IMG/VR virus record: IMGVR_UViG_3300043444_000423
Span: 1-27,475 of that record
Reading direction: 5' to 3' (one strand)
DNA length: 27,475 bases
Source: a virus
Shown: positions 3,046-25,129 of the stretch, piece after piece
How positions within the stretch are numbered: the first letter of the stretch is position 1
Layout: each line of letters begins with the position of its first letter
Translations under genes and position numbers: made by a program
Notes under the pieces: generated by a model
What the model was told of the DNA's origin: nothing
Database searches by the model: none
The model's input: the letters and a program-made list of their open reading frames with translations, nothing else

Positions 3046-3061
3046 TGGGGTGATGCCAATC

Positions 3062-3079
3062 ATGCCACCCTCGGAATAA
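3062..3079 (+). promoter_or_regulatory. Putative phage RNA polymerase late promoter, copy 1 (phi6.5-like)
   Basis: The 18-nt motif ATGCCACCCTCGGAATAA occurs exactly twice in the window, both times in an intergenic gap: here and at 20490-20507. Its core ACCCTC followed by an A/T-rich end resembles the T3 promoter core (AACCCTCACTAAAG), in which the CCCTC part is read by the specificity loop and the A/T part melts. The position after the exonuclease block matches T7 phi6.5. Transcription would start near base 3080. This is inferred from repetition, position and resemblance; no polymerase gene is in view to compare. Confidence 0.65.
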
Positions 3080-5415: not shown

Positions 5416-6273
5416 ATGACTTTGAATATCGATACAGGTACACCTAATGGTGCGCCACAAGACAACGCCGATCAGAACCAGATGTCTGATCATGACAAAG
5501 CGATGCTGGAGAAATCCAAGCAAGTGGAAGTCAACGGTGTCAAAGAGCCGGTAGATCCAAACACCGATCAAAACCAGCAGAACCAAGACGGCAATCCAGA
5601 AGACCGTCCTGCGTGGTTACCCGACAAGTTCAAAACCGTAGATGACTTTGTGAAGTCCTACGGTGAACTCGAGAAAAAGCTCGGCTCACGTCCTGCTGAC
5701 CCAAAGCCTGCTGATCCGGTGGATACTGCGGCTGACCCAGCAGCGGACCCCAAGGCTGACACTAAGGCAGCTGACCCTCTGGACTTCAACAGCTACTTCA
5801 CGGAGTGGTCCGAAAAAGGATCCATCGGTGACGAGAGCTACGCCCAGTTGCAAAAGGCTGGTATCCCTAAGGATGTCGTTGACGCGTACATTGCGGGCGC
5901 CCAAGCCTTGCAAGTACAGCGTGCCAATGAAGGCTTTGCCATTGCTGGTGGTCAAGAGAACTACACCAAGATGACCCAATGGGCCAAGGTGAATCTGCAG
6001 CGCGCTGAGATTGATGCGTTCAACAACGCTATCTCTGGCTCGCCCGAGCAGATGCAGTTGGCCATTCGCGGTATGCACGCCAAGTATGAGTCTGCTGTGG
6101 GTAAGACCCCAGCGCTCCTGAATGGCAGCGCTTCAAGCTTCAACGCAGCAGGCGGTTTCCGCTCGAAGGCTGAGGTTGTCGCAGCGATGAATGACAGCCG
6201 CTATGAGTCTGACTCTGCTTACCGCAACTCAGTGATGCAACGCTTGTCACTCACAGCGGGCGATGTGATTTAA
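5416..6273 (+). CDS. 9: Capsid assembly (scaffolding) protein, T7 gp9-like
   Basis: A 285-aa protein that guides procapsid assembly and leaves before maturation. It is acidic and rich in Asn, Gln and Asp. The N-terminal third is disordered; RPAWLPDKFKTVDDFVKSYG follows and is typical of T7-like scaffolds. Next is a Pro-Ala-Asp repeat linker (about residues 92-120), then the helical body with DEKG/DESYAQLQKAGIP-type segments, and a C-terminus with GGFRSKAEVVAAMNDSRYES, the capsid-contacting part in this family. It has the strongest SD in the region (AAAGGAGGAGGGG before ATG 5416). A terminator follows the stop. In T7 the capsid gene comes next; here the minus-strand cassette intervenes. Confidence 0.93.
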   Translation: MTLNIDTGTPNGAPQDNADQNQMSDHDKAMLEKSKQVEVNGVKEPVDPNTDQNQQNQDGNPEDRPAWLPDKFKTVDDFVKSYGELEKKLGSRPADPKPADPVDTAADPAADPKADTKAADPLDFNSYFTEWSEKGSIGDESYAQLQKAGIPKDVVDAYIAGAQALQVQRANEGFAIAGGQENYTKMTQWAKVNLQRAEIDAFNNAISGSPEQMQLAIRGMHAKYESAVGKTPALLNGSASSFNAAGGFRSKAEVVAAMNDSRYESDSAYRNSVMQRLSLTAGDVI

Positions 6274-6279
6274 CGCTAG

Positions 6280-6308
6280 GCAGGTCTTTCGGGACCTGCT
6301 TTATTTAA
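6280..6308 (+). terminator. Rho-independent terminator after the scaffold gene
   Basis: GCAGGTC (6280-6286), loop TTTCGG, GACCTGC (6293-6299), then TTTATTTA. The stem is perfect over 7 bp. The T-rich tract includes the complement of the stop codon (TAA, 6301-6303) of the convergent minus-strand gene. On the minus strand the hairpin has no T run, so it acts mainly on plus-strand transcripts. Confidence 0.8.
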
Positions 6309-7749
6309 AGAGTTTTCCTAAGATTCCTTGGGAACTTTGAGCAGACTTCATTTTTGTTTCATCAACAGAGAATGCTGTGTGAATCACACGGCTGGCCATA
6401 CTTTTTGGCTTGAAGAGGCTTGGACGGGTAGTCTTGTTATGTGCAGCCAAACGCTCGGCGAATGAGCCTGAACAGAACAAGTACTGGTACATATCATCTC
6501 GTGCTGATTCAATCTTCACGTCATATCCAGATCCAGCCATTTCTTCTCTGATGGTGTTTCTCAAAGAGTCATACCCATCACACAACCAGAATGCAGTTGT
6601 GTTTGTGATGCCCATCCACTTCTCTAGTGTGTTGTCTGGGTAGCTCGTAAAGAAGCTCTTGACCGCAGGGCTGTTGGATTCAACGGTGATGTTGTTGAAG
6701 ATGGTTGCATAACCCGCTGCTCTGATGATCAGATGCGGTGAGGTCAACATTTCTTCAGTGATTTTCTCGATGTCGTGCGCCACAGCGTGACTGCGCATCA
6801 AAGAAGACATGGTGAGGATGGCCACACCAGCAGTACTGATAAGTGCGGTTGTTTGTGGATAACCGTCATCACGGTCATACCAATCAGCAAAGTACTCAAA
6901 GACTTTGTACAACGCAGCGCGCTGCTTGCGGTTGTAACTCTCCATAAATTTTGAAGATGCAGTAATTTTTTCCTCAATGGATTGAATCTCCTCGGCAGTG
7001 AGCCAATCTTCTGCCCGTACATCAAGCGATGCCTTTGGCAGCTTCCATAGAAGAAGTCCCGTGAGGTACGAGTTGAATGTTTTTGCGTCGAGTGCTTCTT
7101 TCGCATCTTTGATCATGCGAACGAATGCTGCATTGACTCTGGTGAAGTAAATCTCGTGGGAGTCCGGAGAGTCTTTTCCAGCCCAGAATTCGGCAGGAAT
7201 CTCTTCAACACCGATGGCTTCTGCACCAATAAGCAATCTGGTTCCGATAGGAAGCGTCTCAAAACCCTTCTTGCCACACATTGCATCTGCAATGACGGTT
7301 CTGTCCATACGAGGGTTACGAACCATTGCATAGAGTAGCGATTTGTTTACAGGCTCCTCAAGATCAGCCGACAAGGTGTTTTGCAGTATGTTATTTCCTG
7401 CATCGTTTCTAAGGCTTAGCCGATACCAGTCTATGCGGCTGTTGCTAAGGAGCGCAGCTTTGAAAGCAGGGCCTTTGACAAACAGTTGCTCAAGTGCTCT
7501 TGTTTCCCAAAGCTCCATCACTTTCCCGTAAGTGGCAAGGACAAGCTTCAGGTCATCTCTGTCACTTGCAAGAATTCCATCACGGACAGGCTCAAGGTCT
7601 ACTAACAGTTCGTCACGACCATCTTCTGATTCCTGCGTGTGTGTCTTCAAGAGATGCTTAGTAAGTTCGTAGGCTGGGACGATTTTGATGAACTCAGCCG
7701 CGAGAAGCGGGTTCTCTCGGGCATCTTTGAAGTTGAAGATGTCAAACAT
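6301..7749 (-). CDS. Unknown 482-aa protein of the antisense cassette in the head module
   Basis: I do not recognise this protein. It is 482 aa, without signal peptide or clear membrane segment, and looks almost wholly alpha-helical. Short helix pairs with YAMVRNPRMDRTVIADAM and SPHLIIRAAGYATIF suggest an alpha-solenoid (HEAT or LRV-like) fold, but this is only a reading by eye. The N-terminus (MFDIFNFKDARENP) and C-terminus (GILGKLFK) are hydrophobic/basic. The start is ATG at 7749, with AAGGA about 7 bases upstream on the minus strand. It lies 47 bases downstream of the 67-aa membrane protein gene in the same direction, so the two likely form one operon, running against all neighbours. T7 has no gene here. 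Roles such as exclusion of other phages or blocking host defence are possible but unsupported by any motif. Confidence 0.88.
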   Translation of the reverse strand: MFDIFNFKDARENPLLAAEFIKIVPAYELTKHLLKTHTQESEDGRDELLVDLEPVRDGILASDRDDLKLVLATYGKVMELWETRALEQLFVKGPAFKAALLSNSRIDWYRLSLRNDAGNNILQNTLSADLEEPVNKSLLYAMVRNPRMDRTVIADAMCGKKGFETLPIGTRLLIGAEAIGVEEIPAEFWAGKDSPDSHEIYFTRVNAAFVRMIKDAKEALDAKTFNSYLTGLLLWKLPKASLDVRAEDWLTAEEIQSIEEKITASSKFMESYNRKQRAALYKVFEYFADWYDRDDGYPQTTALISTAGVAILTMSSLMRSHAVAHDIEKITEEMLTSPHLIIRAAGYATIFNNITVESNSPAVKSFFTSYPDNTLEKWMGITNTTAFWLCDGYDSLRNTIREEMAGSGYDVKIESARDDMYQYLFCSGSFAERLAAHNKTTRPSLFKPKSMASRVIHTAFSVDETKMKSAQSSQGILGKLFK

Positions 7750-7796
7750 AGTTAGTCCTTAGGTTTTTTATTTTCGCACTATAGCTCTTCAAAGTG

Positions 7797-8000
7797 CTAA
7801 GAATTATCTTCGCCGAACACCAAGTCGAAGATTACTAATCCCATAAACATACCACTTATGACAGCCGCAAGGCTGAACGGATAGATGAGCCACGCCTCAT
7901 CGACGCCAAGCAGTTGACTGTAGATGTCCGCTGCAAACATCCCCATCGCCAATCCACCAGCCGCAGCGAAGTAATTCTTGCGCGCGTCCCCACTCATCAC
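7797..8000 (-). CDS. Small two-helix membrane protein of the antisense cassette
   Basis: A 67-aa protein predicted to have two membrane helices: about residues 10-30 (FAAAGGLAMGMFAADIYSQLL) in part, and about 38-60 (LIYPFSLAAVISGMFMGLVI). A short acidic loop (GVDEAW) joins them and the C-terminus is acidic. The start is GTG at 8000 (GAGGAG 7 bases upstream) or ATG three bases further at 7997. It is the upstream gene of the minus-strand pair with the 482-aa gene. Small two-helix proteins in phages are commonly holins, antiholins or superinfection-exclusion proteins; the reversed strand and head-module position argue against a standard holin. I cannot assign a family. Confidence 0.72.
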   Translation of the reverse strand: MMSGDARKNYFAAAGGLAMGMFAADIYSQLLGVDEAWLIYPFSLAAVISGMFMGLVIFDLVFGEDNS

Positions 8001-8162
8001 TTTTCGACTCCTCGAAGCCAGACCTCTTTAGGTCGACTTCCGTAACCAGTCTGTTGACTGCATCTGGCCTTGCTGCGGCAAGACAACCTGATTCGCATGC
8101 GCTGACCTTGTGTTGCAGGAAGGGAAAACCCCAATCCCATCCAAATCACTAGGAGTTTCCTC
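8001..8162. other. 162-nt divergent interval between antisense cassette and capsid gene
   Basis: This gap must supply the leader of the capsid gene to the right and of the minus-strand cassette to the left. It holds two small perfect stem-loops: GACCT/AGGTC with CTTT loop (8021-8034) and CTTGC/GCAAG with TGCG loop (8069-8082). I see no copy of the 18-nt promoter motif on either strand and no convincing sigma70 promoter. The capsid SD (AGGAG) is at its right end. Confidence 0.55.
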
Positions 8163-9089
8163 ATGGCAAACGCAAACCCCAGCCGCCTCGGTCAGGTCAA
8201 CAAATCTGGCGCAACCGACGAGCTGTTCCTCAAAGTATTCGCAGGCGAAGTTCTGACTGCATTCGAAAAAGCAACTGTGTTCACACCACGAACCATGTCC
8301 CGCTCGATTGCTTCTGGCAAATCTGCATCTTTCCCCGTGGTCGGTCGCAACACTGCAGGCTACCACACCCCCGGTACCGAAATCCTCGGTAACAACATCG
8401 GCCACTCTGAAGTGGTCATCACCATCGACCAGCTGCTCGTGTCCCCTGTGTTCATCAGCTCCATCGATGAGGCAATGAACCACTATGAAGTGCGTTCTAT
8501 CTACTCTAAAGAGTGTGGCCTGTCTTTGGCTTACGAGATGGACAAGCACATCGCCGCTATGGCTTTGAAGGCTGCACGCTCACCTGCCATCCTCGATGGC
8601 TTTGATGGTGGTTCGACCATCGTGAACCCTAACTTCCGTACAGACAGCAACGCTTTGGCAGCTGGCTTGTTCGAAGCTGCAAAGGTGTTCGATGAGAAGA
8701 ACGTGCCTGAGACTGAGCGCTTCTGCTTCTTGCCTCCTGCTTTGTACTACCTCTTGGCTCAGAACACGACTGCTATCAACTCGCAGTTCGGTGGCTCTGG
8801 TGCTTACAAAGACGGTACCGTTGTAAAAATCGCTGGCATCGAATTGGTGAAAACCAACCACTTGCCACAAAGCAACGCTGCTGCTTCGAACAGCAAGTAC
8901 AACATCGACGGCACAAACACTGCTGCCATCGTGATGCAAAAAGGCGCCGTTGGTACTGTCAAGTTGCTTGACATGGCTGTTGAGTCTGAATACGACATCC
9001 GTCGTCAAGGTACGTTGGCTTTGGCTAAGTACGCTGTTGGTCACGGTGTTCTTCGCCCAGAGATGTGCGTTGAATTGGCTGTTGCCTAA
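8163..9089 (+). CDS. 10: Major capsid protein, T7 gp10-like
   Basis: A 308-aa HK97-fold shell protein. The start MANANPSRLGQVNKSG, then ELFLKVFAGEVLTAFEKATVF, GKSASFPVVGRNTAGYHTPG and the E-loop region follow T7 gp10A. IDEAMNHYEVRSIYSKECG and the C-terminal YDIRRQGTLALAKYAVGHGV are equally typical. T7 gp10A is 344 aa, so this is a shorter version. The SD (AGGAG) sits 8 bases before ATG 8163. Codon use favours GCT, AAC and CGT/CGC, as expected for the most abundant virion protein. I see no slippery site that would make a T7-style 10B extension; the gene is closed by a strong terminator soon after its stop. Confidence 0.97.
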   Translation: MANANPSRLGQVNKSGATDELFLKVFAGEVLTAFEKATVFTPRTMSRSIASGKSASFPVVGRNTAGYHTPGTEILGNNIGHSEVVITIDQLLVSPVFISSIDEAMNHYEVRSIYSKECGLSLAYEMDKHIAAMALKAARSPAILDGFDGGSTIVNPNFRTDSNALAAGLFEAAKVFDEKNVPETERFCFLPPALYYLLAQNTTAINSQFGGSGAYKDGTVVKIAGIELVKTNHLPQSNAAASNSKYNIDGTNTAAIVMQKGAVGTVKLLDMAVESEYDIRRQGTLALAKYAVGHGVLRPEMCVELAVA

Positions 9090-13265: not shown

Positions 13266-16200
13266 ATGCCACGCGAAACACAAACCCGTTTGAATCAGAA
13301 CGCTCCAGTTCAGGAATCAAACGCACAGCAGCTGTTCACTCAGGTGACAAGCCGGCCTGTTGACACAACTGTGTCTCCCGCGCAGTCCAACATGATGCGC
13401 CTTGCCGGTGCTCTTGAGGGGTTGACCCCGGGCATTCAGGCGTTCGAGCAAGCGACCCTCAACGGGGTGCGCAGGGATGTGGCCCAAGAGGTGGAAGACA
13501 ACAAGCGCAAATTGATTGACCAAGGTCTCCAAGATGCTTTGGCAAAGCCAGAGGCACGCGGTGAGTCAGCCCTCAGGTATTTGAATCCTGAGTACAAGGC
13601 GGCCTACTTTGATGCAATGAGCATGACTACGGCCACAGATATCGACCGCGAGTTTGCCCTTGACTACAACAAGAACAGTAAAGATCCTGCGTACGACGTT
13701 AAGGCGGCCTATGACAGGATCTTGAAAGAAAAGACAGCAGGCATTTCTGACGGACAGTACCTTCAGAAAGTTGTTGCACAAACGGCAAAAACAGTTGGTA
13801 CCTACTCTGTGCATTTTGCGCAGACTCAGCAAAAGATGGCTGACCAAAAGATGATGGACAACGTCAACACCGCATTCAGCAATGTGCTCGATAGCTACCA
13901 AAGTGATACGAGCAACCCAGAAATGAATCAAGGTCTGGTGAGTGCTGACAAGGTACGCGATGTTTATAAGAGCGTGCGCGAGCAGGCCAAGGCCACAGGG
14001 ACAGACCCCCGAGAAATCGAGCGAATGTTTGTTCAGCAGATGAGTTCGCGCGGTCTTATCAATGAGGACTTGAAGAGGATTCTCTACGAGAAGGATGCCA
14101 GTGGACATGCTGCAGCTGACAGTCCGGAGGTGCAAAAGATTTTCACTGCTGACCGGATTAGGCGCGAGAACGCACTGGATGCGGCATCCAAAAAGCGCAG
14201 GGATCTGGAATCAATCCACGTCAAAAAAGACATCGTGGACAACCCCGATAACTGGTCTTTTGAAGCCATCAATGCGTATGTCAAATCAGAGCATCTGTCG
14301 CCTGATGAGGGTATGTCAATCTACACAAAGATGATGGATGAAAGGCGCAAGCGTCAGGAGAAAGCCCAACGGTTGGCTGATGTGCTTGGCCCTAACGGAA
14401 AACTCTTGGCCGCCACCGACACTGAGTACAAAAAGGTTCTCGACGAACACTTGGTTAACCAAGGACTCCCCGTGCTGGCAGCCCTTAGTGATGCTGTCAG
14501 GAGTGGTGACGAGACGAGTGCAGGAGTGGAGACAACTCGCATTGCAGCGTTGATTTCTGACCACAGTCTGGTCAAAGGGTACACAACACCACACCCCTTG
14601 ATGGAAGTCATCAAGACCAACATGTTCTCAGGAGCTGTCTCTGTGAACTCCAAGACGCCACCTGCTGAATTCTTGGCAGGGGTCCGCTTGTTTGACACCT
14701 TCAGTGCTGCGAACTCAGACCTTGTCTATCGTAATTTCGATGACGAAACTCGTTTGAAGATTGAAACCTTCAAAGCACAGCTTCGCGAGGGTAAAGAACC
14801 TGTGCAGGCATATGCGAATGCTATTGGTATGAGTGCAGCTCAAAAGCTGAACACGCAAGAAGGTGTGGCGAGTCCAATCATGCGCGATACCTTTAAGGCG
14901 TTGTGGAGTGGTGAAAATGAAGCTAATTCACGCAAGCCAAAAGACAGTGAAGTCCCCATTGGGTTCGAAGATGCTGTGATGAGGCGCGCCAACAAGCTCA
15001 AAGCACTCTCTCCATCCATTGGAGATGTTGAGGCGGTGACGCAAGCAAAGAAGGCAGAGCTTCAGAATTACTTCTATGACGAAGATTCCAAAGGTTGGGT
15101 GCGCCTTGTTTCCGGCTACAACCAAGAAGATTCGCAGAGCATCTTTAAAAACATCGCGCAAAAGCAGCACCCAGATGGTGGAACGCTCAGCAAGGTTATC
15201 TACGATGCTGCTGCTGACAAATACACGCTTCAGGTGAATACTGCAGATGGTCCTCAGTATGTTTCATTGACAACGGAAGGTATTAAGTCGGCTGTTCGTG
15301 AGTATGAACTGACGCCTGCGGCAGTTGCTGCAAACATCGAAGAGTACAACGGCGCTGAGAAGTGGTTCAAGGAGCAAGGTCTCTTTGGTAAGCCAAGTCA
15401 GCAGGTTGAAGACTGGATCAAAGTTCAGCAAGAGAATGCTCGACATGCAATCGATAGTCAGCCTACATATGCTGGCAAGAGGCAGCTCATCGAGCAGTAC
15501 GCTGCGATGGACAAGTACAACATCCTCGGATTTCGCAACAGGGCTGATGAAGCCATTGCGTCCCTGACCGGAAGTGCGAAGCGCCCAACGGTTGGTATGG
15601 ATGGAAGCCCTGTTATCAAGAGTGTTGGGTTTCCCGGTGTAAACAAGTTTTTGGCGGCCTATGGAATCTTTCCAGATGCCATCAAGCGCAATGCCGGTAA
15701 TGCATTCAGCACGCTGGCCAATTTGGGGCACAGTGCAGGTGAGTTTGTTGACACAGTGACAGGCAAGGCAACACCTCTGTCTAAGCCGGAATATGTCAAC
15801 GATAACTACATCGACAGGACGCGTTCAAAAGACACCCTCAACAAAAAGCTGAATGAGCTGCGGGCTGACCCCAAGTTCAGTAAGCCAAAACTGATCAGTA
15901 AAGAGAACGCTGAGTATGCAGCGTCAAAAGCTGATCAAGATCCAGCGTTTGCAGTCACGATGGCTACTGAGGATTTCGCAGCAAATATCACCAAAGACAA
16001 CAAAGGAAGAACCATAGGTTTTGGTTGGAACTTCGACATGATTGGGGATACCGCTGCTTTGAAGCATTTGCAAAGTGCGGGTTTTCCGAATCCAGCAAAA
16101 ACTCTGGAACGCCTAAAAGCAAACGACAAGACCCTCAAGATTACGCGTGACCAAGGTTATGCCCTGTACGCTGCACATCGTGAAGGCACTGACAAACTGA

Positions 16201-16526
16201 TGGCTAAAGTCATTGGAAATGAAACGTGGGATAAGTTGGGTGAGCACCACCCAGTCAAAATTATTCTGCGTGACTTTGCCTACAACATGGCGCCCGGAGC
16301 TGATGGGGAAAAGTGGAAGAAGTTTCAGTTCATCCAAGAAATCCGCAAAGGCGGTGACATTGGTACGGTGCTCACAAAGCTCTACCAGACGACTGTCTCT
16401 AACGATAAAGCAAACCAGACCAATTGGTCGAACAGGTTGCATATGTGGGACATCGCGCTCACCCATTCGAAAGCCCTCAAAGACTTGTTTCAGCAGGCCG
16501 CTACTAACGGAGGCAGGCTTCAATAA
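13266..16526 (+). CDS. 15: Internal virion protein (T7 gp15 position) with C-terminal lysozyme-like domain, phiKMV gp36-like
   Basis: A 1086-aa ejection protein (T7 gp15: 747 aa). Residues 1 to about 870 are mostly helical and charged, as expected for a protein of the periplasmic tunnel. The extra C-terminal part looks like a T4-type lysozyme: E902 in MATEDFAANITKD, D911 nine residues later and T916 in GRTIGFGWNF reproduce the Glu-Asp-Thr catalytic pattern and spacing of phage muramidases (Glu to Asp +9). phiKMV gp36 is likewise an ejection protein with a C-terminal muramidase. T7 instead has a transglycosylase at the N-terminus of gp16, and I see none in the gp16-like genes here. The enzyme would open the cell wall during DNA entry. 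SD GGGAGG, 5 bases from ATG 13266. Confidence 0.87.
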   Translation: MPRETQTRLNQNAPVQESNAQQLFTQVTSRPVDTTVSPAQSNMMRLAGALEGLTPGIQAFEQATLNGVRRDVAQEVEDNKRKLIDQGLQDALAKPEARGESALRYLNPEYKAAYFDAMSMTTATDIDREFALDYNKNSKDPAYDVKAAYDRILKEKTAGISDGQYLQKVVAQTAKTVGTYSVHFAQTQQKMADQKMMDNVNTAFSNVLDSYQSDTSNPEMNQGLVSADKVRDVYKSVREQAKATGTDPREIERMFVQQMSSRGLINEDLKRILYEKDASGHAAADSPEVQKIFTADRIRRENALDAASKKRRDLESIHVKKDIVDNPDNWSFEAINAYVKSEHLSPDEGMSIYTKMMDERRKRQEKAQRLADVLGPNGKLLAATDTEYKKVLDEHLVNQGLPVLAALSDAVRSGDETSAGVETTRIAALISDHSLVKGYTTPHPLMEVIKTNMFSGAVSVNSKTPPAEFLAGVRLFDTFSAANSDLVYRNFDDETRLKIETFKAQLREGKEPVQAYANAIGMSAAQKLNTQEGVASPIMRDTFKALWSGENEANSRKPKDSEVPIGFEDAVMRRANKLKALSPSIGDVEAVTQAKKAELQNYFYDEDSKGWVRLVSGYNQEDSQSIFKNIAQKQHPDGGTLSKVIYDAAADKYTLQVNTADGPQYVSLTTEGIKSAVREYELTPAAVAANIEEYNGAEKWFKEQGLFGKPSQQVEDWIKVQQENARHAIDSQPTYAGKRQLIEQYAAMDKYNILGFRNRADEAIASLTGSAKRPTVGMDGSPVIKSVGFPGVNKFLAAYGIFPDAIKRNAGNAFSTLANLGHSAGEFVDTVTGKATPLSKPEYVNDNYIDRTRSKDTLNKKLNELRADPKFSKPKLISKENAEYAASKADQDPAFAVTMATEDFAANITKDNKGRTIGFGWNFDMIGDTAALKHLQSAGFPNPAKTLERLKANDKTLKITRDQGYALYAAHREGTDKLMAKVIGNETWDKLGEHHPVKIILRDFAYNMAPGADGEKWKKFQFIQEIRKGGDIGTVLTKLYQTTVSNDKANQTNWSNRLHMWDIALTHSKALKDLFQQAATNGGRLQ

Positions 16527-16537
16527 AAGGAAAAATC

Positions 16538-17965
16538 ATGCCACCACAGCTGCTCGACGTGCCTCTTCAGAAAACTCTAGGGGCCGTACCTACGGAATCA
16601 TTTCAAGATATTGCAGATAACGAGGCCCAGAGGAGGGCATCTGTACAGGTCCAACAGATTGATGAACGCCAACAGGTCATCACACAACAAACCACAGATG
16701 TCTCCTTTTCTCAAGCCTTCGGTGCTGCGATAGACACTGAGATGTCTGCGAAAGCGATGTTTGATGCCTTCAACAAGCGCGGCAGTGTGCTGGATCCGGA
16801 CTATGTTTACGACCCGGCACAGGTGGACGCTATTGGAAAACAGTTTGATGGTGACAAGGAAGCTCAGCAGGTTTTCATTACTGAGTCGATAAAGGCAAAA
16901 AGCAAGGCTGACCTTGAGTTGATTGCCTACGATGTGGCGCAGTACAGAGCTAAGCAAAAGGCCATCACCGATGCCGGTGGAAAAGGCATTGCCGCTTCGG
17001 TGCTGGCAGCCATTGCTGATCCGACCAACGCTGTCTTTGGCGGCCTTGGCTGGGCAGGCGGTGCTGCGCGTGGCTTGCTTGCAGGGTCAAAGGTTGCTGG
17101 AAAAATCTCAAGCATTAAAACAGCAGCCAGTGCCGGTACAGCTGCAGAGTCTGTTGTTGGCGCCTCGAGGTTTTCTAAGGCTCTTACAGGTGCAGGAGCA
17201 GCGGTGGCAACCAACATGCCTATTGAAGCTGTTTTGCAAGCTACCCAGCCATTGAGGGAAATCGATGATGCTTATGCGACATTTGGCGCTTCCGCCATCT
17301 TGGGGGCTGCAGGTGGTTGGTTAGCGGGAGGTCAGACGAGAAGCAACAAGCTTTTCAATGAAATGACAAACCGTCGTGCATTAGCTGCTGAAAAGAGGGT
17401 GGAAGCCTACGCACTGGCTGGATTTGATAACAGTCCAAAGGTGGATGATGAGGTGGCTTTCATGTCTGGCACCACAGTCTTTCGTGGAAAAGCAAAGTCA
17501 TTCACTGATGATCATGTTGTTGTAGTGGATTCAGCAGGGGAATCCCATGTAGTACCTACGGGGATGCTCAGGCCGGCAACCTACAAACAGGCCAATGGTC
17601 TTGTGGATGGGATGTCACCCCCGTCGGTTCCAGCAGAAAAGGCGTCTTTGGTGTTCCAAACAGCGGATGAGGGTGTCCCCCCAACCGTAGCAGCAACACT
17701 TGGTCCATACGCTGGGCAGGTCAAAGCTAACCGAGGCAAGACGTTCTCAATGATCAAAGTGCAAAACGGTATCCCCGATTTGGACACACCGAGTGTGTAC
17801 ACAAAGGTAGACGGTGTAGATGTTCATCCAGACATCGACCCAAGGCCTTACACATCATCAGCAGCAAGTGCTACTGAAGTACCAGCGATGAGAATGTTTC
17901 ACGAGATGGTGCATGGGGACCCACAGATTGCGCAAGACTTGATTGACGCATGCGCTAGACGATAA
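16538..17965 (+). CDS. 16: Internal virion protein, N-terminal half of a split T7 gp16-like protein
   Basis: A 475-aa protein with AAAAGGAA before ATG 16538. Residues 1-130 are acidic and helical. A Gly/Ala-rich region at about 145-275 has several membrane-compatible stretches (IAASVLAAIADPTNAVFGG, ATFGASAILGAAGGWLAGG), as in large ejection proteins that enter the inner membrane. A small beta-rich module follows (about 302-345). Together with the next gene (832 aa) the sum is 1307 aa, almost the size of T7 gp16 (1318 aa) or phiKMV gp37. No lytic transglycosylase motif is seen at the N-terminus. The C-terminus contains FHEMVHGD, an HExxH string (H455, E456, H459) of uncertain meaning. Confidence 0.82.
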   Translation: MPPQLLDVPLQKTLGAVPTESFQDIADNEAQRRASVQVQQIDERQQVITQQTTDVSFSQAFGAAIDTEMSAKAMFDAFNKRGSVLDPDYVYDPAQVDAIGKQFDGDKEAQQVFITESIKAKSKADLELIAYDVAQYRAKQKAITDAGGKGIAASVLAAIADPTNAVFGGLGWAGGAARGLLAGSKVAGKISSIKTAASAGTAAESVVGASRFSKALTGAGAAVATNMPIEAVLQATQPLREIDDAYATFGASAILGAAGGWLAGGQTRSNKLFNEMTNRRALAAEKRVEAYALAGFDNSPKVDDEVAFMSGTTVFRGKAKSFTDDHVVVVDSAGESHVVPTGMLRPATYKQANGLVDGMSPPSVPAEKASLVFQTADEGVPPTVAATLGPYAGQVKANRGKTFSMIKVQNGIPDLDTPSVYTKVDGVDVHPDIDPRPYTSSAASATEVPAMRMFHEMVHGDPQIAQDLIDACARR

Positions 17966-17988: not shown

Positions 17989-20487
17989 ATGAGCACCTAT
18001 TGCGGAACAGGTTCATTCACACGAGAAGATGGTAGTAGTGTTGAGGGAACTATTGATGGAATCAATGGGGACAAACTGAAGGTAAACACCAAAGACGGTT
18101 TGATCGAGATTACCCCCGGCCAAATCGAAGAAGTTTCCGGACGCTTCACCGTTTTTGGTTTACCGATGCGCTTCAGGATTGACGCATTTTCAACCCTCGT
18201 TGGTTCGGGTTCTTCGACACTTGCCCGGTTGTCAGCAACTTTGTTTGATGGTCCTTTAGAGCACTTTGGAATGAGTGTTGAGACACGCTCACGCATGTTG
18301 GTAGGCGAGATGCAAGCAGAAGGCCAGCAGTGGTTGATGCACCACATGCGTAACGCCGTTGTGGAAGCAAAAGTACCATTGAAAGAGCGCTTTGCTTTTG
18401 AGGTGAAATTTCAAGAGGAAGTTGCCGCAGTTGCTCGTGGAGACACAAGAGCTATCGAAAATGCCTCAACACATGTGACAAAAGCTGCCAAAGCTTACTC
18501 GGATGCCATGTACAAGATGGCAGCTGAGTTGGAATCAAAAGGAATTGTTGACAAGGGTGTGCTGACAAGCCGTGCCAACCATGTGACCCGAAGCTGGAAT
18601 GACAACAAGGCTCTTCACTTTGAGAGGCGCTTTGGTAAAGAGGCTTTCCTGAATGTCATCGCAGGGGCAATTCGCAGTAGAGATGTCACCATGACCATGG
18701 ACGATTCTTTAGTAGTGGCCAATGTCATTCGCACAACACTACGCTCGAAAGACACTGCTGACCTTCTCGGTAGCGCAAGCGTTTTTGGTGAAAAAGCACT
18801 CAATGAGGCTGCTATCAAGGTGGCCCAAGAGCAAAACATCGACGAGTCCTTGGCCAAGTCAATTGTTTCCATGATGACCGGGGAGGCATCCGCTTTCAAG
18901 ACAGGTGTCTTACAAAAGCGTGTCGACTTGGACGAGGCGTACACACACACAGTGACCGATGTAAAAACGGGGCAGCAAATTGAAGTGAAGGTTTCCGATG
19001 TCTTCAACAACAATGCTTCCCAACTGCTTGATGGGTACACCAAGAAAGTTGCCGGCATTATTGCGTTGGCCGAGCGGGGTAACCTGCACAAAGAAGCTGT
19101 GTTTGAGCACCATTTGACCAAGGTTCGCGACGAATTGATTGATGCAGGAAAGTCTGCAAGGTTTATCGAAGAGCGCGTCTCGATGATCCGAGATTTGCGT
19201 AAAGCATTGATGGGAACACTGGATGCTGAAAGTGGGAACTTTGCAAGAGCTGCGCGCCTATTGATGAGCCTGTCGTTTGTTCGCTTCATGGCTCAGGCAG
19301 GTTTCTCACAGACAGCCGAACTTTCTGGCATCTATGGTTATGCTGGGTTTGGGGCTGTCAACAAGCACGTGCCTTTAGTTAAAAAACTCATCTCCGACAT
19401 GCGTAAAGGGCTTCCGGTAGATGATGAGTTTGCAAAAGACCTGCGCGTTATGGGACTAGGTATGGAGCAAATCAGCTCCAAGTTCTTCCTTAAGGGTGCT
19501 ACCGAGTACGAGGGTGACTTCTTGGGACACACCGAGCGCTACATGGAAAATGCAAAACAGGGCGTGGCTTTTGTCAGTGGACTGCGCCCAGCGAACGCCC
19601 TGCTACAACAGGTAGCTGGTCGCAGTTGGTTTCAGTTCATGTGGGAAGCCGCCTCTGGTATCAAGGAGCTGTCACCAGCAAACATCCAGCGATTGGAAGC
19701 AGATGGTTTGAATGCTCAAGACTTGCTGCGCGTAAAGGATGGTCTCAAAAAATATGCGACGTCCAAGAATGGCGTTGTGGACCACATCGATACAGAAGCT
19801 TGGCGCGTAGCGGACCCTGATGGCTACATGGCCATGATATCCACAATGCAAATGCAGACCCGCAAGATGTTCATTCAAGCCGGCGTGGCTGAGCGTCCAT
19901 TCTGGATGAGCAAGCTCGGTGGTCAATTGCTGATGCAGATGCGGGGATTCCTTGTGGATACCTACACGAAGTCAACGCTCAACCATGCCAAGCATCATGA
20001 CTCCATTGCGCTGATGACGATGTTCGTGGGGGTTACTTTGGGTTCCATGCAGTATGCGTTGAGAGCCTATGTCAACAACTTCAACAACAAAGAAGAGCGC
20101 GACAAGAAACTCAAAGCACGCGAGTTGATTGTCCAAGGGATTAACAACTCCAGTCCCTTCTCCGTCATGCCTATCCTTGTGGATGCTGGCCTCGAGGTTT
20201 CAGGCCACAAACCTGCGTTTGGTAGTCGTCTGAGTGATGGAAGCGCTAAGGATTTTCTGAGCGGATCCGGCGCACTCAGAACTCTTGATGACATCATTCG
20301 CGGGGGGGTCGTTGCAGGCAAGACAGTTGTTGGTATGGGTGACTACACACCGACCAAGAGCGAGGTCAACCGTAGCCTCTCGCTGTTTACCCCAAACCTC
20401 TTTGGTTTGCGAAATTTACAGCACGCCATTACGCAACATTTGCCCGACAAAAACCCTGAAGCAGTGGATTTGTTTGACGACAACTAA
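17989..20487 (+). CDS. 16: Internal virion protein, C-terminal part of a split T7 gp16-like protein
   Basis: An 832-aa protein that continues the gp16-like architecture. It starts at ATG 17989 after AAAGGGGG, 23 bases after the previous stop and in a different frame, so it has its own translation start. Residues 1-50 are a beta-rich module (GSSVEGTIDGINGDKLKV and LIEITPGQIEEV). The rest is helical, with LLMSLSFVRFMAQAGFSQTA, GRSWFQFMWEAASGIK and SIALMTMFVGVTLGSMQYAL as hydrophobic helices typical of the C-terminal half of large T7-like ejection proteins. It ends just before the second promoter motif. The N- and C-halves probably act together in the inner-membrane part of the ejection channel. 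Confidence 0.85.
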   Translation: MSTYCGTGSFTREDGSSVEGTIDGINGDKLKVNTKDGLIEITPGQIEEVSGRFTVFGLPMRFRIDAFSTLVGSGSSTLARLSATLFDGPLEHFGMSVETRSRMLVGEMQAEGQQWLMHHMRNAVVEAKVPLKERFAFEVKFQEEVAAVARGDTRAIENASTHVTKAAKAYSDAMYKMAAELESKGIVDKGVLTSRANHVTRSWNDNKALHFERRFGKEAFLNVIAGAIRSRDVTMTMDDSLVVANVIRTTLRSKDTADLLGSASVFGEKALNEAAIKVAQEQNIDESLAKSIVSMMTGEASAFKTGVLQKRVDLDEAYTHTVTDVKTGQQIEVKVSDVFNNNASQLLDGYTKKVAGIIALAERGNLHKEAVFEHHLTKVRDELIDAGKSARFIEERVSMIRDLRKALMGTLDAESGNFARAARLLMSLSFVRFMAQAGFSQTAELSGIYGYAGFGAVNKHVPLVKKLISDMRKGLPVDDEFAKDLRVMGLGMEQISSKFFLKGATEYEGDFLGHTERYMENAKQGVAFVSGLRPANALLQQVAGRSWFQFMWEAASGIKELSPANIQRLEADGLNAQDLLRVKDGLKKYATSKNGVVDHIDTEAWRVADPDGYMAMISTMQMQTRKMFIQAGVAERPFWMSKLGGQLLMQMRGFLVDTYTKSTLNHAKHHDSIALMTMFVGVTLGSMQYALRAYVNNFNNKEERDKKLKARELIVQGINNSSPFSVMPILVDAGLEVSGHKPAFGSRLSDGSAKDFLSGSGALRTLDDIIRGGVVAGKTVVGMGDYTPTKSEVNRSLSLFTPNLFGLRNLQHAITQHLPDKNPEAVDLFDDN

Positions 20488-20489
20488 CA

Positions 20490-20507
20490 ATGCCACCCTC
20501 GGAATAA
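20490..20507 (+). promoter_or_regulatory. Putative phage RNA polymerase late promoter, copy 2 (phi17-like)
   Basis: Exact second copy of ATGCCACCCTCGGAATAA (first at 3062-3079), lying 3 bases after the stop of the second gp16-like gene and 85 bases before the tail fibre start. T7 has phi17 at this place. Start of transcription would be near 20508. Confidence 0.65.
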
Positions 20508-22655: not shown

Positions 22656-24353
22656 ATGATTACTCGCATCATCCTTAAAAACTCCCTGCAACCCGGTAAG
22701 GCACCACTGCCATCCGATTTGGTTGTTGGTGAAGTTGCACTGAACGTGGCCGATGGCACGCTCTACGCACTCAACACGATGGGTCAGGTGGTTGAAGTCC
22801 GCCCTTTGAACCTGCGCGACGGTCAAGTTCTGACCAGCAAACTGGCTGATCTGGCTGTCACCACTGACAAGATTGCTGACGAAGCAGTCACCGTCTCCAA
22901 GCTGTCTCCTGAAGTGCAAGCCCTGTTGGCTCGCACCATCGACACCGCTTCTATCGCTAACGGTAGTATCACCAATGAGAAGTTGGCTGATGGCGCTGTT
23001 ACTTCCGGCAAACTGGCCAGCCCACTTGAGCAATTCATCAAGGGCACCGGTGGTCGTTACCTCGGCGAAGCCTCTGGCTGGGCTGAAGGCAAAGGCCCTG
23101 TGTCGCGCGATTGGAACGGTGCATTCGTAGGTGAGAACTTCATCCGCAAAGGTGACTTCTTCTTCAACATCGAACAAGGTGCATTCTTCATTGCTTCCGC
23201 TAACGGTGGCGCTGAAGTGGTGTGGGTTCGCGTTGGTAACAAGACCATTGGTACCGCTTCGTTGGATGACGGCTCCGTCACCCTCAGCAAGCTGGCCACT
23301 GAAGTCATGGCCTTGGTGGACAGCAAAGTTGCTGCCGAAGGTTCTGCTCGCGAAGCTTCTGACGCTTTGATCAACGAACGCATCAGCAACTTGCTGAGCA
23401 ACGTCGATCCAGCTGCTCTGGACTCGCTCACCGAAATCGTTGCTGCTTTCCAAGCTGCCGACTCGGATCTGACTGCCACTCTGACCAACTTGTCGACCAA
23501 CGCTAGCTCTGCTTTGGCTGCTGAAGCCGCTGCACGCGCTGCTGCTGATGCTGACTTGCAAGCTCAAGTGTCCGCTGAAGTTACCGCACGCACTGCGTTG
23601 TCGGGCAAAGTGGATCAGGAAATTGCTGACCGCAAGGCTGCTGTTGACGCAGTGAACGCACGCGTGACGACCGAAGTCACCTCGATGGGTACCGCACTCT
23701 TTGCTGAGAGCGAGAACCGCATCAACGCTGATGCTGCCCTGCAAGCACAACTGAGCGCTGTCAACGCTGAAGTTGATGTTCTTCGCAATGACTTGTCCTC
23801 TGTGGACGCTACCCGTTTGTCTGACAAGACTGCCTTGGGTAACCGCATCGATGGCCTGCACAACGCCCTGCAAGCAGAAGCATCTGCACGCCTGAGCGGT
23901 GACTCTTCTCTGACCAATGCGGTTCAGACCGAAGTGTTCGAGCGCAAAGCTGCTGACCAACTCGAAGCTGACACCCGTGCTCAAGCCATCCTCGACTTGC
24001 AAGCACAAGTGGGCGATGAGCTGGATGCTGTCAACGCTGCTTTGGCTGCTGAGACTGCTGCTCGCGTAGCCGGTGATGCTGCCCAGCAAGCTGCTTTGAA
24101 CACCGAAGTGTCTGCTCGCCAAGCTGCTGATAGCGCTTTGCAAGTTGCATTGGACGCAGAAGTTGCCGCTCGCGTGGCCGCTGGTACTGCTAACGATGCT
24201 GCTTTGGCTGACCTTGAGACTGTGTTCCAAGGTGCCGTGGACGGTATCGAAGCTGGTATGGCTGCTGAGACTGCTGCCCGTGTGGCTGCTGACAACGCTT
24301 TGGCTGCTCGCGTGAGCACGCTCGAAGGCGAAATCAACGGTGGTACGTTCTAA
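22656..24353 (+). CDS. Second tail fibre protein with long Ala-rich coiled-coil repeats
   Basis: A 565-aa fibre-type protein. Residues 1-45 form a small module, MITRIILKNSLQPGKAP then LVVGEVALNVADGTLYA, repeated at the start of the gene at 24428. Residues 50-130 contain repeated KLAD-type units (VTTDKIADEAVTVSKL, SITNEKLADGAVTSGKLA). A globular insert with GGRYLGEASGW and GDFFFNIEQGAFFI follows. From about residue 220 to the end, E-x-AAR-x-AAD-x-AL repeats of roughly 20 residues form a long, probably trimeric coiled coil. There is no receptor-binding or chaperone domain at the C-terminus, which ends STLEGEINGGTF. Ala is mostly GCT; this strong bias resembles the capsid gene and suggests high expression. 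The upstream gene overlaps its SD region (GGAGG). Confidence 0.85.
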   Translation: MITRIILKNSLQPGKAPLPSDLVVGEVALNVADGTLYALNTMGQVVEVRPLNLRDGQVLTSKLADLAVTTDKIADEAVTVSKLSPEVQALLARTIDTASIANGSITNEKLADGAVTSGKLASPLEQFIKGTGGRYLGEASGWAEGKGPVSRDWNGAFVGENFIRKGDFFFNIEQGAFFIASANGGAEVVWVRVGNKTIGTASLDDGSVTLSKLATEVMALVDSKVAAEGSAREASDALINERISNLLSNVDPAALDSLTEIVAAFQAADSDLTATLTNLSTNASSALAAEAAARAAADADLQAQVSAEVTARTALSGKVDQEIADRKAAVDAVNARVTTEVTSMGTALFAESENRINADAALQAQLSAVNAEVDVLRNDLSSVDATRLSDKTALGNRIDGLHNALQAEASARLSGDSSLTNAVQTEVFERKAADQLEADTRAQAILDLQAQVGDELDAVNAALAAETAARVAGDAAQQAALNTEVSARQAADSALQVALDAEVAARVAAGTANDAALADLETVFQGAVDGIEAGMAAETAARVAADNALAARVSTLEGEINGGTF

Positions 24354-24427: not shown

Positions 24428-25129
24428 ATGACGACACGCATCATCTTGCGTAACTCAACGACAGCAGGAGCAACCCCAGCTGCTCTGACTTTGGCTGTAG
24501 GCGAAGTGGCTGTGAACACAGCTGACGGCAAGCTCTACACCAAGCATGTTGACGAAACGATTCGGGCACTGACACCTGACATCTCAAACATCAGTCAACA
24601 CATTACCCCCAATTCAGACAACGCGTTGGACATCGGTTCGACAGCGTTGCGCATGCGTAATCTTTACGCAGCCTCGGGTGTCATCACGACCTCCGATGCA
24701 AACCTCAAGACAGACATTGAGGCCATTCCTGAAGAGTGGCTCAAGGCTTGGGGCACTGTTCAATTTACACGCTATCGATTTACAGACGCCGTGGCCACCA
24801 AAGGTGACAGCGCGCGTTGGCACGTGGGCTTGATTGCTCAGCGTGTCCACCAAGCCTTTGAGTCCCACGGTATCGACCCCGTGGCGATTGGTCTACTTTG
24901 CTTGGACCAATGGACGGACGAAGAGGGGAATCCCCAAGAGCGCTTTGGTGTGCGCTACGAAGAAGCATTGGCGCTCGAATGCGCTTACCTCAGGTGGCAG
25001 TTGAGCCAGCTGAGTGCTCCCAAAACGCGCACCCCAAGGACAAAAGAAAAAGAAAAACCAGAAGGTACGGACCATGGAAAACCAAAACAACATCGAAAGC
25101 CGCGTCGTCAAGTTGGAGACGGTGATTGA
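24428..25129 (+). CDS. Fibre protein with S74-type self-cleaving intramolecular chaperone domain
   Basis: A 233-aa protein. Residues 1-40 (MTTRIILRNSTTAGATPAAL, then VGEVAVNTADGKLYTKH) repeat the N-terminal module of the 22656 gene. Residues 60-88 are a short beta region (DNALDIGSTALRMRNLYAAS). An intramolecular chaperone (peptidase S74) domain follows: TTSDANLKTDIEAIP holds the Ser-Lys pair S89 and K94, and RWHVGLIAQRVHQAFESHGI and the C-terminal helix YEEALALECAYLRWQLSQL are typical. In known cases this domain trimerises fibres, then cuts itself off before the Ser. After the domain comes a very basic 40-residue tail overlapping the holin-like gene by 56 bases. Cleavage would leave only an 88-residue fibre piece. 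SD GGAG, 9 bases from the ATG. Confidence 0.88.
   Translation: MTTRIILRNSTTAGATPAALTLAVGEVAVNTADGKLYTKHVDETIRALTPDISNISQHITPNSDNALDIGSTALRMRNLYAASGVITTSDANLKTDIEAIPEEWLKAWGTVQFTRYRFTDAVATKGDSARWHVGLIAQRVHQAFESHGIDPVAIGLLCLDQWTDEEGNPQERFGVRYEEALALECAYLRWQLSQLSAPKTRTPRTKEKEKPEGTDHGKPKQHRKPRRQVGDGD

Follow-up and report, generated by a model that had tools for sequence, protein, structure and literature searches.

ORF1, an antisense gene between the scaffold and capsid genes of a T7-like phage, is most likely mobile, moron-like phage cargo and not a head gene, since its relative lies in the cargo block of a prophage and no other relative was found. Because it is also cargo in this unrelated prophage, ORF1 most likely travels as a passenger of advantage to the phage or its lysogen rather than forming part of the particle, and the two copies represent a new, rare cargo family of phages. 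The benefit may be exclusion of, or defence against, other phages, a reading that we place first while holding it tentatively.

The antisense insert in the head module

The window, meaning the whole stretch of DNA analysed, is an IMG/VR virus record of 27,475 bases, a fragment from which the early region is missing. In its T7 gene order and its sequence relatives the phage agrees with the T7-like Autographiviridae; one relative, with a 94% portal match, is the IMG/VR record IMGVR_UViG_3300031924_000051. The neighbours that match PHROGs all run on the plus strand in T7-type order from the DNA polymerase to the large terminase (DNA polymerase, exonuclease, portal, scaffold, the insert, capsid, tail tubular A and B, internal virion proteins, fibre, TerL), which agrees with the first-pass annotation. 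The interruption that it described, two minus-strand genes sharing direction and separated by 47 bases, is likewise present, in a scaffold-capsid gap of 1,889 bases, as are the forward terminator on the scaffold side and the plausible ribosome binding sites. A transposon origin was rejected, since a search for flanking direct or inverted repeats returned short, weak matches only. The features of this region are as follows:

3060-3079, plus strand: copy 1 of the putative phage RNA polymerase promoter, TCATGCCACCCTCGGAATAA, ahead of the portal block
5416-6273, plus strand: T7 gp9-like scaffold, bordering the insert on the left (head assembly phrog_1052, E 8.7e-58)
6279-6300, plus strand: forward intrinsic terminator after the scaffold (hairpin of -14.5 kcal/mol, then TTTATTT)
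6301-7749, minus strand: ORF1, 482 aa, ATG start, predicted all-alpha soluble cargo protein with a full-length prophage relative
7797-8000, minus strand: ORF2, small membrane protein of 66-67 aa (ribosome site, codon score, hydropathy)
8001-8162, minus strand: region upstream of the antisense ORFs and, on the other strand, upstream of the capsid (promoter scans)
8163-9089, plus strand: T7 gp10-like major capsid protein, bordering the insert on the right (major head protein phrog_267, E 5.9e-81)
20488-20507, plus strand: copy 2 of the putative phage RNA polymerase promoter, ahead of the tail fibre gene

ORF1 is a real gene. Its open frame spans 485 codons, whereas 500 dinucleotide shuffles of the gap gave 125 on average and 236 at most, and it is the only frame that matches the codon usage of the phage; together with a 52% identical relative under purifying selection, this makes ORF1 more than a chance frame. 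The ATG is preceded at ~7 nt by AAGGA. Neither ORF1 nor ORF2 gave a significant family or structure match in Pfam, PHROGs, NCBIfam, PADLOC or PDB, in line with the earlier view that no described family covers them, and the PADLOC profiles returned nothing for ORF1, ORF2 or the ORF1 relative up to E 5. By hydropathy, both ORF1 copies lack a clear transmembrane segment. AlphaFold models from either copy (two sequences) were all-helical with pLDDT of 45.7 and 47.3, too low for identification of a fold, and the Foldseek matches to these models, mostly solenoids (importin, catenin-like, TOG, STAG), were not significant and serve as a hint only. The HEPN motif R-x4-6-H is not conserved, as RSHAVAH occurs in ORF1 only and is missing from the relative. 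It is scarcely credible that ORF1 is a glycyl-radical (GrcA-like) protein, as its motif IRAAGYATIFNNIT and weak GrcA-type matches (NCBIfam, E 0.03-0.06; PDB 6owr, E 0.59; a phage PFL-like protein, E 4) might suggest: none of these is significant, the motif glycine, G346, lies 136 residues from the C-terminus and not near it as GrcA requires, and the same stretch can be read as a HEAT-type helix and is modelled as a helix at low confidence. The motif was judged to be chance or a HEAT-like helix.

ORF2 is probably a gene as well, although less secure than ORF1. It starts at GTG 8000 or ATG 7997, with GAGGAG about 10 nt ahead of the ATG, and scores +0.136 per codon in its own frame, whereas the other five frames score -0.02 to -0.43; the codon score and ribosome site therefore favour a gene. 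Frames of this size are common, with 138 ORFs of at least 60 aa in the window. Of the two membrane helices claimed previously, hydropathy supports one clear segment (about residues 33-62), while the second is only marginal. A role for ORF2 as the missing holin of the phage was considered and set aside as needless if the 121-aa gene at 1424-1789, whose counterpart in the close relative L009 holds hydrophobic segments, is the (putative) holin.

The same strand, the 47-nt spacing and the good ribosome sites on both ORFs are what would be expected if ORF1 and ORF2 worked as a dedicated pair linked to the membrane, such as an effector with an anchor. However, no ORF2 relative was found anywhere searched, and the prophage copy of ORF1 has different neighbours with no ORF2 counterpart among them, leaving the proposed two-gene system unsupported and such a partnership improbable.

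With regard to expression, ATGCCACCCTCGGAATAA is an 18-bp exact repeat (copy 2 at 20490-20507; 0.01 expected by chance) that also lies upstream of the portal gene in L009 (6417), and is probably a phage RNA polymerase promoter. Its ACCCTC core resembles the promoters of T3 and gh-1. The motif has no minus-strand copy near the insert, and sigma-70-like sites upstream of ORF2 or ORF1 on the minus strand did not exceed chance. A T7-like core, CGCACTATAG, at 7775 was rejected as a promoter, the match count in the window not being above chance. The terminator hairpin abuts the ORF1 stop and, when read on the minus strand, has no T tail. We infer that ORF1 is likely transcribed weakly by the host polymerase, and that the terminator likely shields it from forward transcription.

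Elsewhere in the window, two genes (16538-17965 and 17989-20487) stand in place of a single T7 gp16-like internal virion protein gene and match separate parts of phrog_342 (194-416 and 528-1190). The gene at the T7 gp15 place (13266-16526) codes for 1,086 aa with no PHROGs or convincing Pfam match. At 22656-24353 there is a 565-aa Ala-rich, coiled-coil-like tail protein with an SF-assemblin match and many degenerate internal repeats, and the gene downstream of it (24428-25129) carries an S74 peptidase chaperone domain.

The prophage relative of ORF1

Screening about 85,000 species genomes recovered the sole relative of ORF1, on the Comamonadaceae MAG contig JAIYCB010000012.1. It is 473 aa long, full-length and collinear end to end with ORF1. 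Within the sensitivity of the searches, no further relatives were found in 50,697 phages, 72,556 plasmids, IMG/VR or the species genomes. IMG/VR was queried by protein, by alignment and with two DNA patterns, and about 1,260 genomes were covered in four group searches; these yielded only the prophage copy. ORF1 was also not found among related T7-like loci or isolates. Identity between the two copies at codon positions 1, 2 and 3 is 0.60, 0.74 and 0.38, and synonymous sites are saturated with dN at about 0.43, which indicates purifying selection on the protein ever since the copies separated. The best-conserved blocks are SDRDDLKLVLATYGKV and LIIRAAGYATIFNNI.

The relative lies inside a siphovirus-type prophage of roughly 42.7 kb, integrated in tRNA-Cys, with genes for an integrase fragment, replication, terminase, portal, capsid, tape measure, tail tip and an M15 endolysin, these putative roles having been read from gene order and Pfam matches. 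The prophage ends are fixed by an exact 46-bp repeat of tRNA-Cys. The positions are:

about 53.18 kb: exact repeat of the final 46 bases (3' end) of tRNA-Cys
L008 3974-7719 (G001:C49 53,478-57,223): prophage cargo block
54,505-55,926: ORF1 relative, about 1.3 kb inside the prophage end distal to the integrase
about 95.83-95.90 kb: intact tRNA-Cys, adjoining one prophage end

The cargo block is AT-rich, with lysis genes on one side and the attachment site on the other, and the relative runs opposite to the late genes (lysis, tail). It is flanked by genes for proteins of 323 aa and 118 aa with signal-type N-termini. In total the block holds four AT-rich genes of unknown function (323 aa, the ORF1 relative, the lipoprotein-like 118 aa, and 246 aa), and the neighbours of the relative have no convincing Pfam or PADLOC match.

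Base composition is moron-like in both phages. ORF1 has 46.9% GC, less than any other window gene measured (49-56%), and the relative, at 34%, is below both its prophage (58%) and the chromosome (60%). The distribution is moron-like too, ORF1 being absent from related phages while its relative occurs in an unrelated siphovirus-type phage. The first-pass annotation had proposed a selected, non-structural accessory gene on the minus strand, and this is supported; the only homologue found has its place among cargo genes.

The scaffold-capsid junction and the probably temperate lineage

A comparison of the scaffold-capsid gap among related phages, as suggested in the first-pass annotation, covered 92 sequences with both genes, in which the window is counted twice, giving 90 other loci. 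The junction varies, and ORF1 was not found in any of the 90. Most gaps measure 130-330 bp, with inserts of 0.5-3 kb in about 30. On the plus strand, the large gaps contain lysis-type genes (a holin in L011, pairs of a small membrane protein and a lipoprotein elsewhere), psbA in cyanophages, and an endonuclease VII-like gene. Lysis genes occupy this junction in Pasto, tRNA-Asn in LUZ100 and in the Paadamvirus phages RHEph01 and RHEph21, and an HNH gene in CRP-118 and CRP-804. The psbA gene of T7-like cyanophages is, like the proposed cargo here, a host-benefit gene in the scaffold-capsid gap, although it is on the plus strand and encodes a known photosynthesis protein. Alongside psbA, the cyanophage gaps (L104, L106, L110, L112 and L122) repeatedly encode a small protein of about 116-124 aa that is probably secreted (MKKIALALAATTFASAPAMAGVYINAESN...). 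The gaps of L012, L015 and L044 contain long antisense frames, which overlap plausible plus-strand lysis genes and were dismissed as shadow frames.

Among annotated isolates, antisense genes at this junction occur in two phages, both integrase-bearing and T7-like. Rhizobium phage vB_RleA_TRX32-1 (Autographiviridae, Paadamvirus) has an accessory gene in the same place and orientation as ORF1, with GC below its surroundings (51.5% against 61%), but its 289-aa protein (phrog_25239) is unrelated to ORF1. This gene is missing from the sister phages RHEph01 and RHEph21, and the comparison shows a gain or loss of an antisense gene between close relatives. Mesorhizobium phage Lo5R7ANS carries in the same orientation a 109-aa gene (GC 49.7% against 61%), again with no detectable relationship to ORF1, whose product matches MtlR (E 9e-8), DUF4145 and, weakly, Abi_2 and AbiD, and contains the motif RAIRNLFAH. 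The gene (L145 2796-3125, minus strand) is annotated as a transcriptional regulator, but looks to be of a HEPN-type, MtlR/DUF4145/Abi-like kind. Given the varied contents of the gap and the unrelated antisense genes in the window phage, TRX32-1 and Lo5R7ANS, the junction is an accessory slot, where unrelated antisense genes have been gained at least three times. Hotspots of anti-phage genes have been documented for the prophages P2 and P4 (PMC9122126), and the junction resembles such temperate-phage hotspots in that its position in the genome is constant while the accessory genes there vary. It differs in that the slot lies inside a T7-type head module and in that ORF1, a putative defence gene, matches no known defence family. 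The junction between capsid and tail tubular A is perhaps a second accessory slot; it holds an esterase-like gene in RHEph01. A 614-aa ORF lies between the same two genes in a Comamonadaceae T7-like module (L160, L162 and L163; G369:C2).

The description of this phage as compact and lytic is probably wrong. A tyrosine integrase was found in 11 of the 20 related records searched. In the capsid tree, each of the nine records tested from the clade of the window (support 98/94) has an integrase, and the tested records that lack one branch elsewhere. The phage is thus probably temperate by descent; as the early region, where an integrase would lie near the RNA polymerase gene, is missing from the window, this state is inferred from the relatives. 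Temperate T7-like phages have been described, among them LUZ100 and the TRX32-1 group; LUZ100 falls in the clade of the window together with Pasto, and an integrase is reported for both (PMC10134795; PMC8631192). LUZ100-type phages share the integrase-bearing capsid clade with the window, but LUZ100 has tRNA-Asn and small plus-strand genes in its scaffold-capsid gap, and its antisense RNA downstream of the capsid was reported to be noncoding (PMC10134795). T7-like modules were detected in 4 of 401 Comamonadaceae genomes, and all four lack a large scaffold-capsid insert.

Possible functions of ORF1

The explanation we prefer, which falls somewhat short of being probable, is that ORF1 is prophage-expressed cargo whose most likely benefit is phage exclusion or defence. 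The gene would have been gained horizontally, as a moron-like gene common to the window phage and an unrelated siphovirus-type prophage, and placed at the scaffold-capsid junction, an accessory slot of the wider T7-like group, in a phage most likely of the integrase-bearing (temperate) T7-like branch. Being antisense behind a forward terminator, ORF1 would stay outside the late transcript of the phage polymerase, yet the host polymerase could read it from the prophage at a low level. The encoded protein, soluble, all-alpha and about 480 residues long, may then protect the lysogen from other phages, through superinfection exclusion or defence. The choice of exclusion or defence is based on context. 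Several observations weigh against this explanation: family and structure searches revealed no anti-phage or other function readable from the ORF1 sequence; no minus-strand sigma-70 promoter exceeds chance, so that expression of ORF1 is unproven; and there is a single known relative, with the four Comamonadaceae T7-like modules having no insert at this place.

Second in rank is lysogenic conversion, in which ORF1 would alter host physiology (stress, surface or metabolism) in favour of the lysogen without excluding phages. The AT-rich prophage block with its secreted and lipoprotein neighbours would suit such a role, as would the host-physiology gene psbA in the same slot of cyanophages, but ORF1 has no enzymatic or transport signature, and the Abi/HEPN-like antisense protein at the Lo5R7ANS junction points instead to defence; we consider conversion rather unlikely. 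An anti-defence or host-takeover protein acting in lytic growth ranks third and is unlikely. Rare phage accessory genes often have this role, and ORF1 has been kept under purifying selection in two unrelated phages; however, it is antisense in the late block, away from the early genes and both putative phage promoters, and its relative belongs to the cargo at the prophage end and runs against the lytic genes. That ORF1 is a structural or head-assembly factor particular to the window phage, as its location between scaffold and capsid might suggest, is highly improbable given its absence from the other gaps compared and the occurrence of its relative among cargo genes in a phage of another morphological type.

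Taking exclusion or defence further, ORF1 might found a family of single-protein exclusion factors in unrelated temperate phages, with the antisense slot an unrecognised defence hotspot whose members would be ORF1 here, the HEPN/Abi-like gene in Lo5R7ANS and the gene of unknown function in TRX32-1. This extension is speculative and its truth doubtful. Temperate T7-like phages have been recognised only recently, and ORF1, of which two unrelated phages keep diverged but intact copies, offers a clean first candidate. If the junction is indeed a slot for antisense, prophage-expressed cargo, exclusion and defence genes could be sought by position across many T7-like genomes.
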